IMG/VR virus record: IMGVR_UViG_3300021378_000194
Coordinates: 1 to 21,369 of that record
Direction: 5' to 3' (one strand)
Source: a virus
Length of the DNA: 21,369 bases
Under the pieces are notes generated by a model, which was not told where the DNA came from, did not search any database, and was given only the letters and a program-made list of their open reading frames with translations. Position numbers and translations under genes: made by a program. Numbering within the stretch: the first letter of the stretch is position 1; every line of letters begins with the position of its first letter. Positions 2,560 to 20,762 of this stretch are shown here, in pieces.

Positions 2560-3561
2560 ATGTATGATGTTTATTATACAACTGGTGGAGGACCTTGGGT
2601 AAATGCAGGTACTGATACATGGGTTAATATTTGGTTAGAAGAAATTGCACCAAAGTTAAAAGTAAAACCAGTTCTTCTTATTCATAGAAACAAACCAAGA
2701 AACTTTAACGAATACGATTACAAATTTCCAATAGAAACTCATTGGCATGGTGATGATTTAAGAAAATTTGAAAAAATAGTAAAAGATTGTAGAAGAATAC
2801 ATATTTTACATGGTCATTATACACCAATGAAAGTGTTATTAGATAATAAGAAGAAAATTTATTCTAATGTACTTCATAACTCAGTAGACCATATTGTAAA
2901 AAATGCAGTTGGTAATGACCAAGATTTTGGACATCATCCTTATGTAGATTCAAGTTGGGAAATTGAAGTAAATCAATGGGCAAAAAAATCAATATGGATT
3001 GGATTATATGATATTAAGTATAAAAATGAAAATATTCCAAATTTTTACGAGTTTAAAAATAATATGCCATTATCATATTCTAATAAGTTAGGATTTGCTG
3101 CAAGAAGTGAAGGAAGAAAGAATCCACATTTCTTAGATGGAAAGGAATCATATATTTTTACAGATTCGGTACAATTTAATGGAGTATTCAAACAAGGATA
3201 CAACATGGATACTTCAAAATCAAAAATATATCATTACAAACCAGAGTTTGGTGAAAAGTTTTATAATATGAATTGGGGAATATCTCATTCATGCTTTACA
3301 TACGAACCATTTGGGTATTCAATATTTCAAGCAGTAGATTGGGGAAAATTACCTATTTTACATACATCTTGGTTACCAACTTTAGAATATCCTTACAGAG
3401 CAACGTTTAAAAAAGATTTTGATGATATTTATAATAAGTTACTAAACACCCCTTATGAAGAAAAAAATAAGTGGTTTTTATACTTAAAAAAATATATGAT
3501 TGAAAATTTTACCAATAAAGATAAGTGGGTAAAAGAATTACTTGATATTTATAATATATAA
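2560..3561 (+). CDS. Putative GT-B glycosyltransferase (GT4-like C-terminal half)
   Basis: The 333-residue product starts with YTTGGGPWVNAGTDTWVNIW, resembling the glycine-rich N-terminal donor/acceptor loop of GT-B enzymes. Later it has AARSEGRKNPHFL (about 180-192), like the R...K phosphate-binding region. Residues 249-265 (EPFGYSIFQAVDWGKLP) correspond to the GT4 E-x7-E motif, but the second acidic residue is Gln257. No membrane segment or signal peptide is apparent, so it should act in the cytoplasm. It lies 3 nt after the Ser/Thr/Asn-rich fibre gene and before the Hint-bearing protein. A plausible inference is that it glycosylates a fibre; modification of another virion protein or of host sugars is also possible. 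Donor and acceptor cannot be read from the sequence. The 3' end carries a promoter-like box for the next gene. Confidence 0.7.
   Translation: MYDVYYTTGGGPWVNAGTDTWVNIWLEEIAPKLKVKPVLLIHRNKPRNFNEYDYKFPIETHWHGDDLRKFEKIVKDCRRIHILHGHYTPMKVLLDNKKKIYSNVLHNSVDHIVKNAVGNDQDFGHHPYVDSSWEIEVNQWAKKSIWIGLYDIKYKNENIPNFYEFKNNMPLSYSNKLGFAARSEGRKNPHFLDGKESYIFTDSVQFNGVFKQGYNMDTSKSKIYHYKPEFGEKFYNMNWGISHSCFTYEPFGYSIFQAVDWGKLPILHTSWLPTLEYPYRATFKKDFDDIYNKLLNTPYEEKNKWFLYLKKYMIENFTNKDKWVKELLDIYNI
3546..3553 (+). promoter_or_regulatory. Putative late promoter box inside the end of the glycosyltransferase gene
   Basis: TATTTATA lies in the last codons of the upstream gene and 21 nt before the ATG at 3575. AGGAGA at 3564-3569 serves as ribosome binding site. 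Box, spacing and RBS match those before the tube gene and the gene at 9803. The same octamer also occurs once inside this gene (3426-3433), so chance is not excluded. Confidence 0.45.
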
Positions 3562-3574
3562 TTAGGAGAATAAT

Positions 3575-4885
3575 ATGGCTACACTTTCAAGTGGAGATAC
3601 TTTATCATTAGCAGATTTAAGAGATTCAACAGCAGCTACAACGGCTGCAATATCTGATGTAATGGGTACAACTCCATCCGCAGGAGATAACATTAGTTTT
3701 TCATCGTTCGCAATCGATTCGGTTGGTTCAATTAGTGGATATACTTATGGTGTTGAAAACACCGATGAGAATTACACTCTTCAATTTGGTGGAGCTGGTA
3801 CAAATCATAGTAAATTATCAGCACATAGTGGTAACTTCACATGGTCAAAAGCCGCAGGAACAACAATTACTATTGCTGCAGGCGGAACAGCAACTGCAAC
3901 TGTATCTATTGGAGAAAATGGAGATAATTCAACACAAAGTCAAATTTTTTCAATACTATCTAATACATTAAGAGTAGTATATGATGAAGCATACAATGAC
4001 CACATTGGTGGAGCGGGTTTAGGTTTAATGGGTGAAAATATTGATAAAACTGTTTATTCAGTAGATTCATATGATGGTAACTCATCTGCATTATGTTTAA
4101 CCGCTGATTCACCTATTGAATTAGCAGATGGTGAAATTGTTGAAGCAGGAGATTTAGATGAAGGAGATATCTTAAAAGGTGTAAATCTAAATGGTTTATC
4201 AGAAGCACCAGATGGAAACTTCCTAAGATGGGATTCAGATACTCTTGGTAATGAATCAGTTGATGTAAATGTTATAAACCTTACATATTCTTTCGCATCA
4301 AGATATTATAATGTTAATGATGGTGAAATAACTGCAACTGCAGAACACCCTATGTGTATTAAAGATTCTAATGATGGTTTATTTAAATTCAAAGAAATAC
4401 ACCAATTAGTTGTTGGTGATAAACTTATAAAAGGAGATGGAACTGAAGTTGATGTGGTATCAATTGAAGCAATTGAGAAAACAGTAGAGATTGTATCTAT
4501 TGATGTTGATGGACCTGATACTTACTTAGCTAATGGATATATTACCCACAATAAAGGTGGTAATACATTTAGTAACTTTAGTGGACCAGCAGCACCAGCT
4601 AACTTAGCATATAATAATCCAGCTGGAGCACAAAATTCAACATTGACTTGGGATGAACCAACTTCAACAGGTACTGAGGGTATAACTGAGTATCAATTAC
4701 AAGTTGATGATTCTAATGGATTTGGTTCGTTAGATGGAACTCATAGTGGTACTTATAGTACAAGAACAATTAATGTATCTGGTCTTTCAACTGGTACATG
4801 GTATGCAAGAGTAAGAGCAAGAGAAATGGGAGTTTGGGGAAGTTATTCTTCGGCACTTGAATTCTCTCATACATTTGAAAACTAA
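3575..4885 (+). CDS. Hint (intein-like) domain tail protein with FNIII-like C-terminus
   Basis: The 436-residue product has three parts. Residues 1-173 form a Ser/Thr/Gly-rich N-terminal region that begins LSSGDTLSLADL, a start style seen in phage structural proteins. Residues 174-326 form a Hint domain: Cys174 in CLTADSPI (block A), TAEH at 255-258 (block B) and TYLANGYITHN ending in His325-Asn326 (blocks F/G). Only about 58 residues lie between blocks B and F, so there is no homing endonuclease. Residues 340-436 look like a fibronectin type III domain (PANLAY...STLTWDEP...GTWYARVRA). The residue after Asn326 is Lys, not Cys/Ser/Thr, so normal splicing is unlikely. Bacterial intein-like domains of this kind cut at one or both ends. 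The protein is inferred to be a self-processing tail adhesin. ATG 3575 follows an AGGAGA site. Confidence 0.82.
   Translation: MATLSSGDTLSLADLRDSTAATTAAISDVMGTTPSAGDNISFSSFAIDSVGSISGYTYGVENTDENYTLQFGGAGTNHSKLSAHSGNFTWSKAAGTTITIAAGGTATATVSIGENGDNSTQSQIFSILSNTLRVVYDEAYNDHIGGAGLGLMGENIDKTVYSVDSYDGNSSALCLTADSPIELADGEIVEAGDLDEGDILKGVNLNGLSEAPDGNFLRWDSDTLGNESVDVNVINLTYSFASRYYNVNDGEITATAEHPMCIKDSNDGLFKFKEIHQLVVGDKLIKGDGTEVDVVSIEAIEKTVEIVSIDVDGPDTYLANGYITHNKGGNTFSNFSGPAAPANLAYNNPAGAQNSTLTWDEPTSTGTEGITEYQLQVDDSNGFGSLDGTHSGTYSTRTINVSGLSTGTWYARVRAREMGVWGSYSSALEFSHTFEN
4094..4552 (+). other. Hint/bacterial intein-like domain (coding segment)
   Basis: This marks Cys174 (TGT, 4094-4096) to Asn326 (AAT, 4550-4552) of the protein starting at 3575. 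N-terminal Cys, block B His and C-terminal His-Asn are all present. The +1 residue is Lys327 followed by Gly-Gly. In known Hint chemistry the Cys makes an N-S acyl shift and the Asn cyclises to cut the C-terminal bond. Confidence 0.8.
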
Positions 4886-4960: not shown

Positions 4961-5263
4961 ATGGCAGAATCAATTAAGTTTACAGACGAAGAAATTCAAT
5001 CAATTAATCAACTAAGGCAAGAAGTAGGTTCAGTTTTTACAAGATTAGGACAACTTTCTATTCAAAGAGCTAGACAAATACAGGACTTGGATAACGCAGA
5101 AGGTGATTTGATAACACAACATCAAACACTTGTTGAAAAAGAAAGCAATTTATTTAAAGGATTGAATGAAAAGTATGGTGATGGAAACTTTGACCCAAAA
5201 TCGGGTGAATTTACTCCAACTCCAACGGAAATAGAAGAAAAAGAAGTTACAACTGAAGGATAA
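4961..5263 (+). CDS. Small coiled-coil protein upstream of tail sheath
   Basis: The 100-residue product is charged and mostly helical. Residues 8-70 show heptad-like spacing of Leu/Ile/Val (IQSINQLRQEVGSVFTRLG, then RQIQDLDNAEGDLI), fitting a coiled coil. The segment LFKGLNEKYGDGNFDPKSGEF (about 64-84) closely recalls small proteins of unknown function in tail regions of other marine phages. The C-terminus is acidic and probably disordered. There is no signal peptide or membrane segment. It has its own promoter-like box, and the sheath gene follows 77 nt later. A structural or assembly role is suggested by position only. Confidence 0.7.
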   Translation: MAESIKFTDEEIQSINQLRQEVGSVFTRLGQLSIQRARQIQDLDNAEGDLITQHQTLVEKESNLFKGLNEKYGDGNFDPKSGEFTPTPTEIEEKEVTTEG

Positions 5264-5340: not shown

Positions 5341-7731
5341 ATGGCAGAAAAGATTGTATCACCTGGTGTATTTACGAGAGAAAATGACCTTTCTTTCTTA
5401 TCACAAGGAATTGGAGAAATCGGAGCAGCAATAATTGGACCTTTCCATAAAGGACCTGCTTTCGTACCAACCGTTGTAAGTACACAATCAGAATTCGAAG
5501 AAATATTCGGCACCCCTAATGGAGATTACTATTCAGGGTACACCGTACAAAATTATTTAAGAGAAGCTGGAGTAGCTACTATTGTTCGTGTAGGACATAT
5601 TGGTGGTTATACTCATGCAGCACCTCTTGGAATCAAATTAAGTGGTGTAGGTACCAAAGATGATAAAATCATTGGTGTACTACATGGAACTGATAACCTT
5701 GCAGATGCAGATGGAGATATCACAACTGAATTACTTGCTTCAACCGCAATAGATTCACAACCTTCAGCATCAGTATTCTCAATTTCAGGTTCTTTATTTG
5801 GAACTGAGATTTCAGCATCAGTTTTACCAACCGCAGGAAATGATTTATCCGATGTATTCGGTGAATCTCCATTTGGTTCTAAAAAAGTATTTTCATACAA
5901 GTATTTTGAAAATGCAGCAACTGATTTCGCAACTCACTTAACTAATAGTGGTTCACAAGTTTCTTTAGTTGCATTAGCAGACCAAGATTTAACACAAGAT
6001 ATTCAACACGCTAGTACTCCTTACATACAATCACAGTTGATTTCTGGTGAAAGACACAATCTTTTCAGATTACATACTCTTGGTGATGGTACTTATGCAA
6101 ACACAGAATATAAAGTATCTATCTTTAATGTAAAAGCAGCAGGAAGTTCTAACGCAACTGATTATGGAACATTCTCAATTGCAATTAGAGGTTACTCTGA
6201 TACAGATAAAAGAAAAGTAGTACTTGAAACATTTACTAACTTAACTATGGACCCTGCATCACCAAATTACATCAAGAAAGTAATAGGTGACCAAAACATG
6301 ACTATTGATGCAGTTGGTAAAATGAATTTAGATGGTGATTATGTAAATTACTCTAAATTTGTTAGAGTTGAATGTGTAGCAGAAGGAGCATCTCCTATAA
6401 CAGCAGTACCATTTGGACATGGAGCATATACTAACCCAATTTATGTTGGTGGTTCTGAATCAGATGTACCAGCAGTAATATTCTCAACAGGTTCAATAGA
6501 TAACAATTCATCTAAATCAGTTGTATATTCGGGTATTGATTTAGAAAGTGCTTTAGTTAAAATAGATAATACAGCATACCTTTCACCAATACCTGCTTCG
6601 GCAACAGTTGGTGGAAATACAGTATTTGCATTCGATGCTGATATCAATGTAAAAGGTGGAACAAAAAATCACCAAGATGATGGATATGGAACATTTAACT
6701 TCGGTTATACTATATCTACATCAGATACAGCAGCAATCATTAATAAAAGACAATTTACAGTAGGATTCCAAGGTGGATTCGATGGTATATCTCCAACAAT
6801 CAAATCGGCTAAAGCTGATGATTCTCAATGGGGAGCAGGAAACTCACAAGGATTTAACTTATCAACTTCAACAGCAAGTGGTTCGGTTGCATATGTAAAA
6901 GCAATCAACGCAGTATCTAACCCAGATGATTTCGATATCAACTTGGTATCTGCACCTGGTGTTGTAAGAAGATTACACTCATATGTGTTTGATAAAGTAA
7001 CTGATATGGTAGAGGCTAGAGAAGATGCATTCTTCATCGGTGATACAACTGATAAAAATGATACTATTGCTCAAGCAATTCTACAAGGTGAATCAGTTGA
7101 TTCTAACTATGTAGGTACTTATTACCCATGGGTTAAAACAATCGATTCAAGAACTAATAAATTAACTTCAGTTCCACCATCAGTATTGATGCCAGGAATA
7201 TACGCTGAAAACGATGCAGTTGCAGCCGAATGGTTCGCACCAGCAGGGTTAAATAGAGGTGGTATCACCGGAGCAGTTTCTGTACTAAACAGATTAACAC
7301 ACGCTGAAAGAGATACACTCTATGAAGGAAAGATTAATCCAATCGCACAATTCCCAGGTGAGGGTATCGTTGCATTCGGACAGAAAACTTTACAAGACCG
7401 TTCATCAGCACTTGATAGAATCAACGTAAGAAGATTATTAATCAAAGTTAAGAAATACATTGCATCTACATCAAGATACCTTGTATTCGAACAAAACACA
7501 TCTCAAACGAGAGGTAAGTTCTTAAATACTGTTAATCCTTATTTAGAAGGAATACAACAAAGACAAGGACTTTACGCTTTTAGAGTTGTAATGGATGAAT
7601 CTAACAACACACCAGATGTAATCGATAGAAACATCTTGGCAGGGGCAATTTACTTACAACCTACTAAGACAGCTGAATTCATTGTAATTGATTTCAACAT
7701 TCTACCGACTGGGGCTAGTTTTACGGCATAA
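5341..7731 (+). CDS. gp18: Contractile tail sheath protein (T4 gp18-like)
   Basis: The 796-residue product forms the contractile sheath around the tail tube. The N-terminus (SPGVFTRENDLSFLSQGIGE, then AAIIGPFHKGPAF and YTVQNYLREAG) is characteristic of myovirus sheaths. The conserved C-terminal half includes PSVLMPGIYAENDAVAAEWFA, then AERDTLYEGKINPI, FGQKTLQDRSSALDRINVRR and the final strand FIVIDFNILPTG. T4 gp18 has 659 residues; the extra length here is in the middle, about residues 100-500, where sheaths carry variable surface domains. Codons ending in C (TTC, ATC, AAC) are more frequent than in neighbouring fibre and baseplate genes, as expected for a very abundant protein. A good RBS precedes the ATG. 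The tail tube gene follows, the normal order. Confidence 0.95.
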   Translation: MAEKIVSPGVFTRENDLSFLSQGIGEIGAAIIGPFHKGPAFVPTVVSTQSEFEEIFGTPNGDYYSGYTVQNYLREAGVATIVRVGHIGGYTHAAPLGIKLSGVGTKDDKIIGVLHGTDNLADADGDITTELLASTAIDSQPSASVFSISGSLFGTEISASVLPTAGNDLSDVFGESPFGSKKVFSYKYFENAATDFATHLTNSGSQVSLVALADQDLTQDIQHASTPYIQSQLISGERHNLFRLHTLGDGTYANTEYKVSIFNVKAAGSSNATDYGTFSIAIRGYSDTDKRKVVLETFTNLTMDPASPNYIKKVIGDQNMTIDAVGKMNLDGDYVNYSKFVRVECVAEGASPITAVPFGHGAYTNPIYVGGSESDVPAVIFSTGSIDNNSSKSVVYSGIDLESALVKIDNTAYLSPIPASATVGGNTVFAFDADINVKGGTKNHQDDGYGTFNFGYTISTSDTAAIINKRQFTVGFQGGFDGISPTIKSAKADDSQWGAGNSQGFNLSTSTASGSVAYVKAINAVSNPDDFDINLVSAPGVVRRLHSYVFDKVTDMVEAREDAFFIGDTTDKNDTIAQAILQGESVDSNYVGTYYPWVKTIDSRTNKLTSVPPSVLMPGIYAENDAVAAEWFAPAGLNRGGITGAVSVLNRLTHAERDTLYEGKINPIAQFPGEGIVAFGQKTLQDRSSALDRINVRRLLIKVKKYIASTSRYLVFEQNTSQTRGKFLNTVNPYLEGIQQRQGLYAFRVVMDESNNTPDVIDRNILAGAIYLQPTKTAEFIVIDFNILPTGASFTA

Positions 7732-17546: not shown

Positions 17547-18314
17547 ATGAAGTATCTTACAAATGAAGAAATCCAACAAATGACTTTTGATTGGAGGTAT
17601 CGAGGATTTACAACAATACAATTACTTACTGAAGAAGAATGTGATGAAATAAACGAAGAAATGGAAAAAATTCGTTTAGAAAGAAATCTTACTACAAAAG
17701 AAGATGGTTCAGATTGGGGTGAATGGGACCCATTTATGTATCCACATAAATACTCAGATAAAATAGAAAAACTTTTTGTACATCCTAAAATCATAGAAGC
17801 TTGTGAATTTTTAATGAATGGTAAATTAGTTGGTATGCAAAGTTGGGCATATTTTAAACCACCAGGTCAATTAGGAAGAGATATGCACCAAAATGTATTT
17901 TATACAGGATGTGGCCATAATGAGATTATTAACATGGCTCTTGCACTTGATAATCATGATAAAGAAAATGGAGCAGTTTGGAATTACGAAGGTTCTCATA
18001 AATTGGGTATCCTTCCAATTGAGGTAGATGAGGAACGAGTAAAAACAAATCCAAAGAATTGGAGAAATGAAAGAGGTAAAGCTTGTGTAATGCCCAAAGG
18101 TCATGATTTTAGTAAGATAGAAGGTGATTGTAAAAAAGGACATATGGTATTACTTCACTCACATTGTGTTCATGGTTCTGAAGCAAATACTTCTAATAGA
18201 ATGAGAAGAAATTTCTTAGGTGGATATCTTGTAGAGGGAGCTAAATTTAAAGAAGGTGGGCATATGAAACGAACACCTATTGATGTTTATAAACTTCAGA
18301 AAAAACATTGGTAA
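17547..18314 (+). CDS. PhyH-like Fe(II)/2-oxoglutarate dioxygenase with HxN in place of HxD
   Basis: The 255-residue product matches the phytanoyl-CoA dioxygenase-like family: N-terminal helices with EEIQQMTFDWRYRGFTTIQL, then QSWAYFKPPGQ (98-108), MHQNVFY (113-119), ENGAVWNYEGSHKLGIL (140-155) and a C-terminal HSHCVHGSEANTSNRMRRNF (204-223). In this family iron is held by HxD and a distal His, and Arg binds 2-oxoglutarate. Here the first part is His114-Gln-Asn116, so the usual Asp is Asn; the distal His is likely His209 and the Arg 220 or 221. Typical substrates are small molecules; the phage substrate is unknown. It starts the accessory region, 32 nt after the tail operon. Activity is uncertain because of the ligand change. 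Confidence 0.8.
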   Translation: MKYLTNEEIQQMTFDWRYRGFTTIQLLTEEECDEINEEMEKIRLERNLTTKEDGSDWGEWDPFMYPHKYSDKIEKLFVHPKIIEACEFLMNGKLVGMQSWAYFKPPGQLGRDMHQNVFYTGCGHNEIINMALALDNHDKENGAVWNYEGSHKLGILPIEVDEERVKTNPKNWRNERGKACVMPKGHDFSKIEGDCKKGHMVLLHSHCVHGSEANTSNRMRRNFLGGYLVEGAKFKEGGHMKRTPIDVYKLQKKHW

Positions 18315-20171: not shown

Positions 20172-20762
20172 ATGATAAATAATTTATTTTCAACACAAAT
20201 ATATGATTCAAAAATAGATAACGATATCTTTAATAAACTAAAAAAAGATGTGTTAAAATATATTGATAATAATGAAAAACTGTTTGTAAAAAACTGGCAG
20301 TGTGATACGTTATCAAATGTATTCTGTGAACAGAACGAAAAATTTTTACCAAACTATCTAAGCGAACTTATAATAAGCCACACCTCAAAATATATTGTTG
20401 AAGGTGGATTTACTCCAAGTGGATTTCTTATAGATAATTGCTGGATAACATTAGGAGGTAAGGGTGATTTTCAAGAGAGTCATGACCATCTTGGAGATAC
20501 TAAAGGTTCTCAAACTACGTTTTCAGGTGTTATGTATATACAAGCTGAACAGAATAAAGGTGGTGAATTTTTTATGGATTCTCCAATTGATACATTATCA
20601 AAATTATTACCAACAAATAATTCAAACCCTTCAAAAATTAGTATTTCACCCGAAGAAGGATTATTGATATCATTCCCATCATTTATAAAACATGGTAGTT
20701 TTATTTATAACTCTGATAAAAAGAAAAGAATATCTATTAGTTGGAACATAAAATTTATTTAA
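20172..20762 (+). CDS. 2OG-Fe(II) oxygenase family protein (2OG-FeII_Oxy_5-like)
   Basis: The 196-residue product has the layout of small phage 2-oxoglutarate oxygenases: N-terminal LFSTQIYDSKIDND, WITLGGKGDFQESHDH (91-106), FSGVMYIQAEQNKGGEFFMD (117-136), EEGLLISFPSFIKHGSFI (161-178) and KKRISISWNI (184-193). Likely iron ligands are in the His104-Asp105-His106 group and His174, with Arg186 for 2-oxoglutarate. Members occur often in marine T4-like phages. Substrates are mostly unknown; protein or small-molecule hydroxylation is possible. It is unrelated in sequence layout to the PhyH-like gene at 17547. It ends the small-gene cluster, and a new promoter follows. Confidence 0.78.
   Translation: MINNLFSTQIYDSKIDNDIFNKLKKDVLKYIDNNEKLFVKNWQCDTLSNVFCEQNEKFLPNYLSELIISHTSKYIVEGGFTPSGFLIDNCWITLGGKGDFQESHDHLGDTKGSQTTFSGVMYIQAEQNKGGEFFMDSPIDTLSKLLPTNNSNPSKISISPEEGLLISFPSFIKHGSFIYNSDKKKRISISWNIKFI

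Follow-up and report, generated by a model that had tools for sequence, protein, structure and literature searches.

Hint domains of the A-type BIL class, such as BIL4 of Clostridium thermocellum (PDB 2lwy), measure ~130-155 aa, end in His-Asn, lack an endonuclease and reside in variable, non-housekeeping host proteins, and BIL domains are located in variable protein regions (PMC7765530; PMC5874633). A nucleophile at the +1 position is optional in them; ligation can proceed without it when the freed amine attacks the thioester (PMC4031507), and according to reviews the products of BILs are mostly those of cleavage (PMC7664689; PMC5874633). Lysine is reportedly the acceptor for BIL2 of the Tetrahymena thermophila BUBL1 polyubiquitin-like locus (PDB 6y75, 6tmm), which is described as joining a protein to the side chain of a lysine through an isopeptide bond and as passing its ubl4 to several substrates (PMC8616854). 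An outcome like the one proposed below is also described for the clip-and-link module of RTX proteins, which first cleaves itself and then forms an isopeptide bond with a Lys close by; that module is unrelated, uses Asp-Pro chemistry and is calcium dependent (PMC7078468). Hint-bearing phage proteins have been annotated before, and the biology of a Hint domain in a phage tail-gene neighbourhood is little described.

Such a domain is encoded in the window, that is, the whole 21,369-nucleotide stretch analysed here (IMG/VR record IMGVR_UViG_3300021378_000194), as the middle part of a protein whose gene lies between those of a glycosyltransferase and a tail sheath protein. The features of this region are as follows (positions in the window):

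2560..3561, + strand: GT-B glycosyltransferase (GT4-like fold; fold Z 20.8), directly upstream, present in 83/83 loci with enough sequence
3575..4885, + strand: gene of the Hint/FN3 protein, 436 aa (ORF; full-length orthologs in viral contigs)
3575..4093, + strand: N-terminal domain, the N-flank of Hint, residues 1-173 (conserved family)
4055..4093, + strand: N-side junction flank YSVDSYDGNSSAL, residues 161-173 (low entropy; L173 in 89/89)
4094..4552, + strand: Hint domain, residues 174-326, 153 aa (conserved residues, fold, profile searches)
4094..4096, + strand: Cys174, predicted thioester nucleophile (89/89 proteins)
4337..4348, + strand: block B, T255-A-E-H258 (H258 in 89/89, T255 in 88/89)
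4547..4552, + strand: block G, His325-Asn326 (89/89 each)
4553..4555, + strand: Lys327, the +1 residue (89/89 proteins; 123 distinct DNA versions; unselected scans)
4553..4567, + strand: C-side junction flank KGGNT, residues 327-331 (mean entropy 0.60 bits)
4592..4861, + strand: FN3 domain, residues 340-429 (PF00041, 9.6e-7; fold Z ~12 to FN3 domains)
4961..5263, + strand: gene of a small protein of 100 aa, located between those of the Hint protein and the sheath (ORF)
5341..7731, + strand: tail sheath protein (PF04984, PF17482, phrog_23), downstream of the Hint gene in 113/113 loci

The ORF, Cys174, the TAEH block, His325-Asn326 and Lys327 are, in residue and numbering, exactly as given by an earlier sequence-only reading, which had placed a Hint of the BIL type, lacking an endonuclease insert, between an N-terminal structural part and an FN3-like domain. 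This layout was borne out by the FN3 match, which passes Pfam's own cut-off, by the fold and by family profiles; the Hint, at 153 aa, contains no endonuclease and has no room for one. No Pfam family was matched by the N-domain of the window protein. The search with Hint and intein HMMs that the same reading had suggested succeeded for the family but not for the lone sequence: with the single window protein all Hint matches were sub-threshold (PT-HINT, 18.5 bits versus a cut-off of 27.7; intein_Nterm, 18.7 versus 24.5), whereas Intein_splicing was matched by 19/19 family members and PT-HINT by 17/19 (best E ~2e-6). Furthermore, a profile of the Hint domain retrieved BIL structures from the PDB (6y75, 3.6e-5; 2lwy, 3.3e-4). 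In the AlphaFold2 model of the protein (pLDDT 73.6; junctions, pLDDT <50), residues 171-326 reach Z scores of 13-17 in alignments to BIL, intein and Hedgehog structures, and the horseshoe Hint fold, the absence of which the earlier reading would have taken against itself, is thus present. The best fold match is 6y75 (Z 16.7, 2.0 A, 135 residues), tied by Z with 2lwy (Z 16.5), and inteins and Hedgehog rank after these.

BIL2 is therefore the best match by both fold and PDB profile, and it shares with the window Hint the Cys1, the block B His, the terminal Asn and an internal position between two domains; it differs in being a zinc-activated ciliate domain, with a reactive Lys reportedly in ubl5. 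The ubiquitin-like flanks that define BUBL/BIL2 were not found around the window Hint, which has FN3 on its C-side and on its N-side the domain without a Pfam match. Sequence traits of Hint domains and of A-type BILs were found: Cys at position 1, TxxH, a C-terminal His-Asn, a length of 153 aa and no Cys, Ser or Thr at +1, in a variable host protein whose flanking domains change fastest and reassort. From the A-type BILs the window Hint is set apart by its phage tail-gene setting, its strictly Lys +1 and its strictly conserved flanks within one family. The Hints in virion proteins of Erwinia Alexandravirus phages, phage NCTB and the huge phage LR756508 are ~27-31% identical over the Hint and keep Cys1 and His-Asn, but, unlike the window's, they are C-terminal, with 2 to 9 residues behind them, follow unrelated N-terminal parts, and have Thr, Ala or Lys at +1. 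A class 3 intein was ruled out by the Cys at position 1 and the lack of a block F Cys (none in residues 262-326). Nor is the domain a class 1 intein, with Lys327 at +1 and no intein-free alleles in about 117 best-ranked loci.

To assess conservation, a whole-protein scan found 158 relatives, of which the best 80 were kept. As its patterns included NGYITHNK, which would bias the +1 position, scans without +1 selection were made with the Hint cut before block G, with the N-domain alone and with a DNA motif located 5' of the Hint; in these, all full-length Hint domains among the matches listed end in HNK. Across the 89 distinct proteins among the matches listed, which come from best-ranked loci and from which remoter relatives may differ, C174, H258, H325, N326 and K327 are kept with no exception and T255 in all but one. 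Pairwise identity of the Hint has a median near 60%, and codons vary synonymously at all five invariant sites: among the 123 distinct DNA versions listed, the +1 codon is AAA in 111 and AAG in 12, and that of Asn326 is AAC in 62 and AAT in 61. The Lys327 noted earlier at +1 is thereby confirmed, with the same outcome in scans unable to select for it. A chance resemblance to Hint was ruled out by the 89 orthologs, none of which has lost C, H, H, N or K at these positions. Uncultured T4-like phages carry near their tail genes a real, conserved A-type BIL-like Hint, which is probably active.

The junctions are conserved as well. Over the 89 proteins, mean column entropy is 0.60 bits both at residues 161-172 and at residues 327-331. 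The Hint stands at 1.14, the N-domain at 1.39 and FN3 at 1.56, so that the two flanks are better conserved than any of the three domains; Leu173 is invariant among the matches listed. The constancy of the flanks could reflect requirements of the reaction, or they could be fixed seams at which the neighbouring domains are exchanged.

An N-domain without Hint was not found among about 117 best-ranked loci, the single exception ending at a contig end, and the Hint is therefore a fixed part of its protein and not a mobile intein, a class also ruled out by the missing endonuclease and +1 nucleophile. N-domain, Hint and FN3 nevertheless reassort among close phages. For example, two loci (L005 and L006) are 96% identical to the window in FN3 and 88-90% in the glycosyltransferase and the sheath but only 65-73% in the Hint, while a third (L002) is about 90% identical in the Hint and 51-72% in the N-domain. 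Pairwise distances correlate at 0.35 between N-domain and Hint, lower than the 0.68 between N-domain and FN3, though the Hint sits between them. No ortholog from cultured phages was found among 50,697 phage records and no close relative in bacterial genomes, where there was one weak Polyangium match. Scans with the LR756508 Hint and with a triple-Hint protein yielded no new relatives, and one with the NCTB Hint led back to the Hint/FN3 family only; a distant alignment that took in the NCTB and Erwinia Hints proved too diverse to serve as a query.

As a control for the +1 position, Hint domains from Myxococcota genomes were collected by family search. Among 36 sites the +1 residue is K in 14, S in 6, C in 5 and Y in 3; with one spurious site removed, K stands at +1 in 14/35 versus 16/408 at positions +2 to +14 (Fisher p 1.5e-9, although p-values are overstated for related domains from one phylum), and with look-alike pairs collapsed it still does so in 9/30. 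A +1 Lys unique to the Hint/FN3 family is ruled out by this control (14/35 Lys). It is a recurrent BIL feature, not peculiar to the window phage. Of the earlier statement that Lys replaces the expected Cys, Ser or Thr, the residue itself stands, but not its oddity, since Lys is the commonest +1 residue in the sampled bacterial Hints.

Several other Hint proteins deserve mention. In myxobacteria, three end in VHNY-stop with a one-residue C-flank (L399, L440, L445), and in two others HN is followed by KGGGGGGGGG, resembling the HN-KGG junction of the phage family (L412, L447). A 789-aa phage protein (L396:1954-4323, minus strand, contig IMGVR_UViG_3300030419_004471) has Hint-like domains in a row, three by profile and two clearly by Pfam, with linkers of a few residues between them, and terminates in HNK-stop. 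The Hint/FN3 family is represented on that contig too. On a 289-kb contig (G001; L394, L403), a homologous N-terminal part is combined with a single Hint (HN-Thr, Cys-rich tail). In LR756508.1, near 146-147 kb, a structural-looking, putatively portal-like ORF (L374) has several intein-like insertions that end in HN-Ser and HN-Thr, and the other Hint protein of this 484-kb phage ends in HNKH-stop.

The window protein may be viewed as a protein of the virion module into which an A-type BIL-like Hint is built. After translation, Cys174 would attack the Leu173 carbonyl to form a thioester, cyclisation of Asn326 would break the Asn326-Lys327 bond, and the alpha or side-chain amine of Lys327 would accept the N-domain from the thioester. 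The products would be N-domain-Lys-FN3 (about 173 + 110 residues) and the released Hint of 153 residues, and as a by-product some molecules would simply be cleaved. Processing at both junctions is likely on sequence grounds, because both reaction centres and Lys327 are kept without exception: if a single junction were in use, decay of the centre serving the other would be expected, yet C174/TxxH and HN are both intact in the 89 proteins. The subsequent religation through the Lys327 amine is put forward more tentatively. It is consistent with the invariance of Lys327 in unselected scans despite synonymous codon change, with the conserved flanks, with BILs as the nearest matches by fold and by profile, with amine attack on the thioester in A-type BILs (PMC4031507), with the lysine isopeptide bond reported for BIL2 (PMC8616854) and with the excess of +1 Lys in unrelated bacterial Hints; against it stand the mostly cleaving habit of BILs (PMC7664689) and the low pLDDT of the model junctions, and mere religation would leave the Hint purposeless, so that its loss would be expected in some lineages, whereas none was found among the best-ranked loci. 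Ligation is favoured by a small margin over plain double cleavage, in which Asn cyclisation frees FN3 and thioester hydrolysis frees the N-domain, so that one gene supplies both in equal amounts and Lys327 has no role beyond giving the FN3 part its new N-terminus or shaping the reaction geometry. This alternative, which has a considerable though lesser chance of being right, agrees with BILs that mostly cleave (PMC7664689; PMC5874633) and with two other phage Hint proteins, ending HNKH-stop (L361; two-residue C-flank) and HNK-stop (L396; one-residue), which imply that long C-parts are not needed; alone, it leaves unexplained both the constant +1 Lys and the flanks as the most conserved stretches.

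In the analysis as a whole, amine capture, which the sequence-only reading had called speculation, appears more plausible than was held there, because BIL2, the closest structural relative, reportedly joins a protein to lysine (PMC8616854), yet it appears less specific to the window protein. Somewhat unlikely, but of wider reach, is that the +1 Lys is a true acceptor and that HN-Lys BILs are widespread lysine-ligating or isopeptide-forming Hints, here building a covalent tail component. Transfer in trans of the thioester-borne N-domain to an amine of another virion protein or the cell surface, helped or accepted by Lys327, has the precedent of BIL2, the best fold match, with its different substrates (PMC8616854) and the never-lost Hint, which suggests more than self-removal; it is improbable, as an acceptor in trans would need no Lys at +1 of the same chain. 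A Hint without activity, whether a structural spacer or a dying intein, would suit the reassortment of the three domains, but a dying intein would lose the catalytic residues that are invariant in 89 proteins at a median Hint identity near 60%, which makes this a very poor prospect. A mobile or recently mobile mini-intein is the least credible reading: the low N-Hint correlation would fit it, but the domain always occupies the same site in the same gene neighbourhood and lacks both an endonuclease and a +1 nucleophile, and about 117 best-ranked loci include no empty allele. If the domain is active, self-processing would be an obligatory and vertically inherited property of a viral structural protein of the tail-gene module, by which an adhesin-like part could be released, joined or cross-linked. 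Since +1 Lys is invariant here and over-represented in unrelated bacterial Hints, its possible role as an amine acceptor concerns BIL domains generally.

The upstream gene had no match in Pfam or PDB sequence searches and was identified by fold only: its model (pTM 0.77) aligns full length with GT-B enzymes (6kih, Z 20.8, 317 residues), and the glycosyltransferase reported earlier as a neighbour was thereby upheld. One reason for this linkage may be that the Hint/FN3 protein is glycosylated. On the other side, a similar small gene precedes the sheath gene in another locus (L398) and in related isolates. The nearest isolates by sheath are Microcystis phage Mel-JY01 (46%) and Flavobacterium phage immuto (40%), in both of which no N-domain or Hint protein was found at the corresponding place near the sheath, where an empty-site analogue was sought. 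Elsewhere in the window, positions 415-2556 encode a 713-aa fibre-like protein with repeated segments that matched PHROG head-decoration and virion-structural families, and two oxygenase-like genes lie near tail genes at 17547-18314 (PhyH, PF05721) and 20172-20762 (2OG-Fe(II) oxygenase, PF13759).
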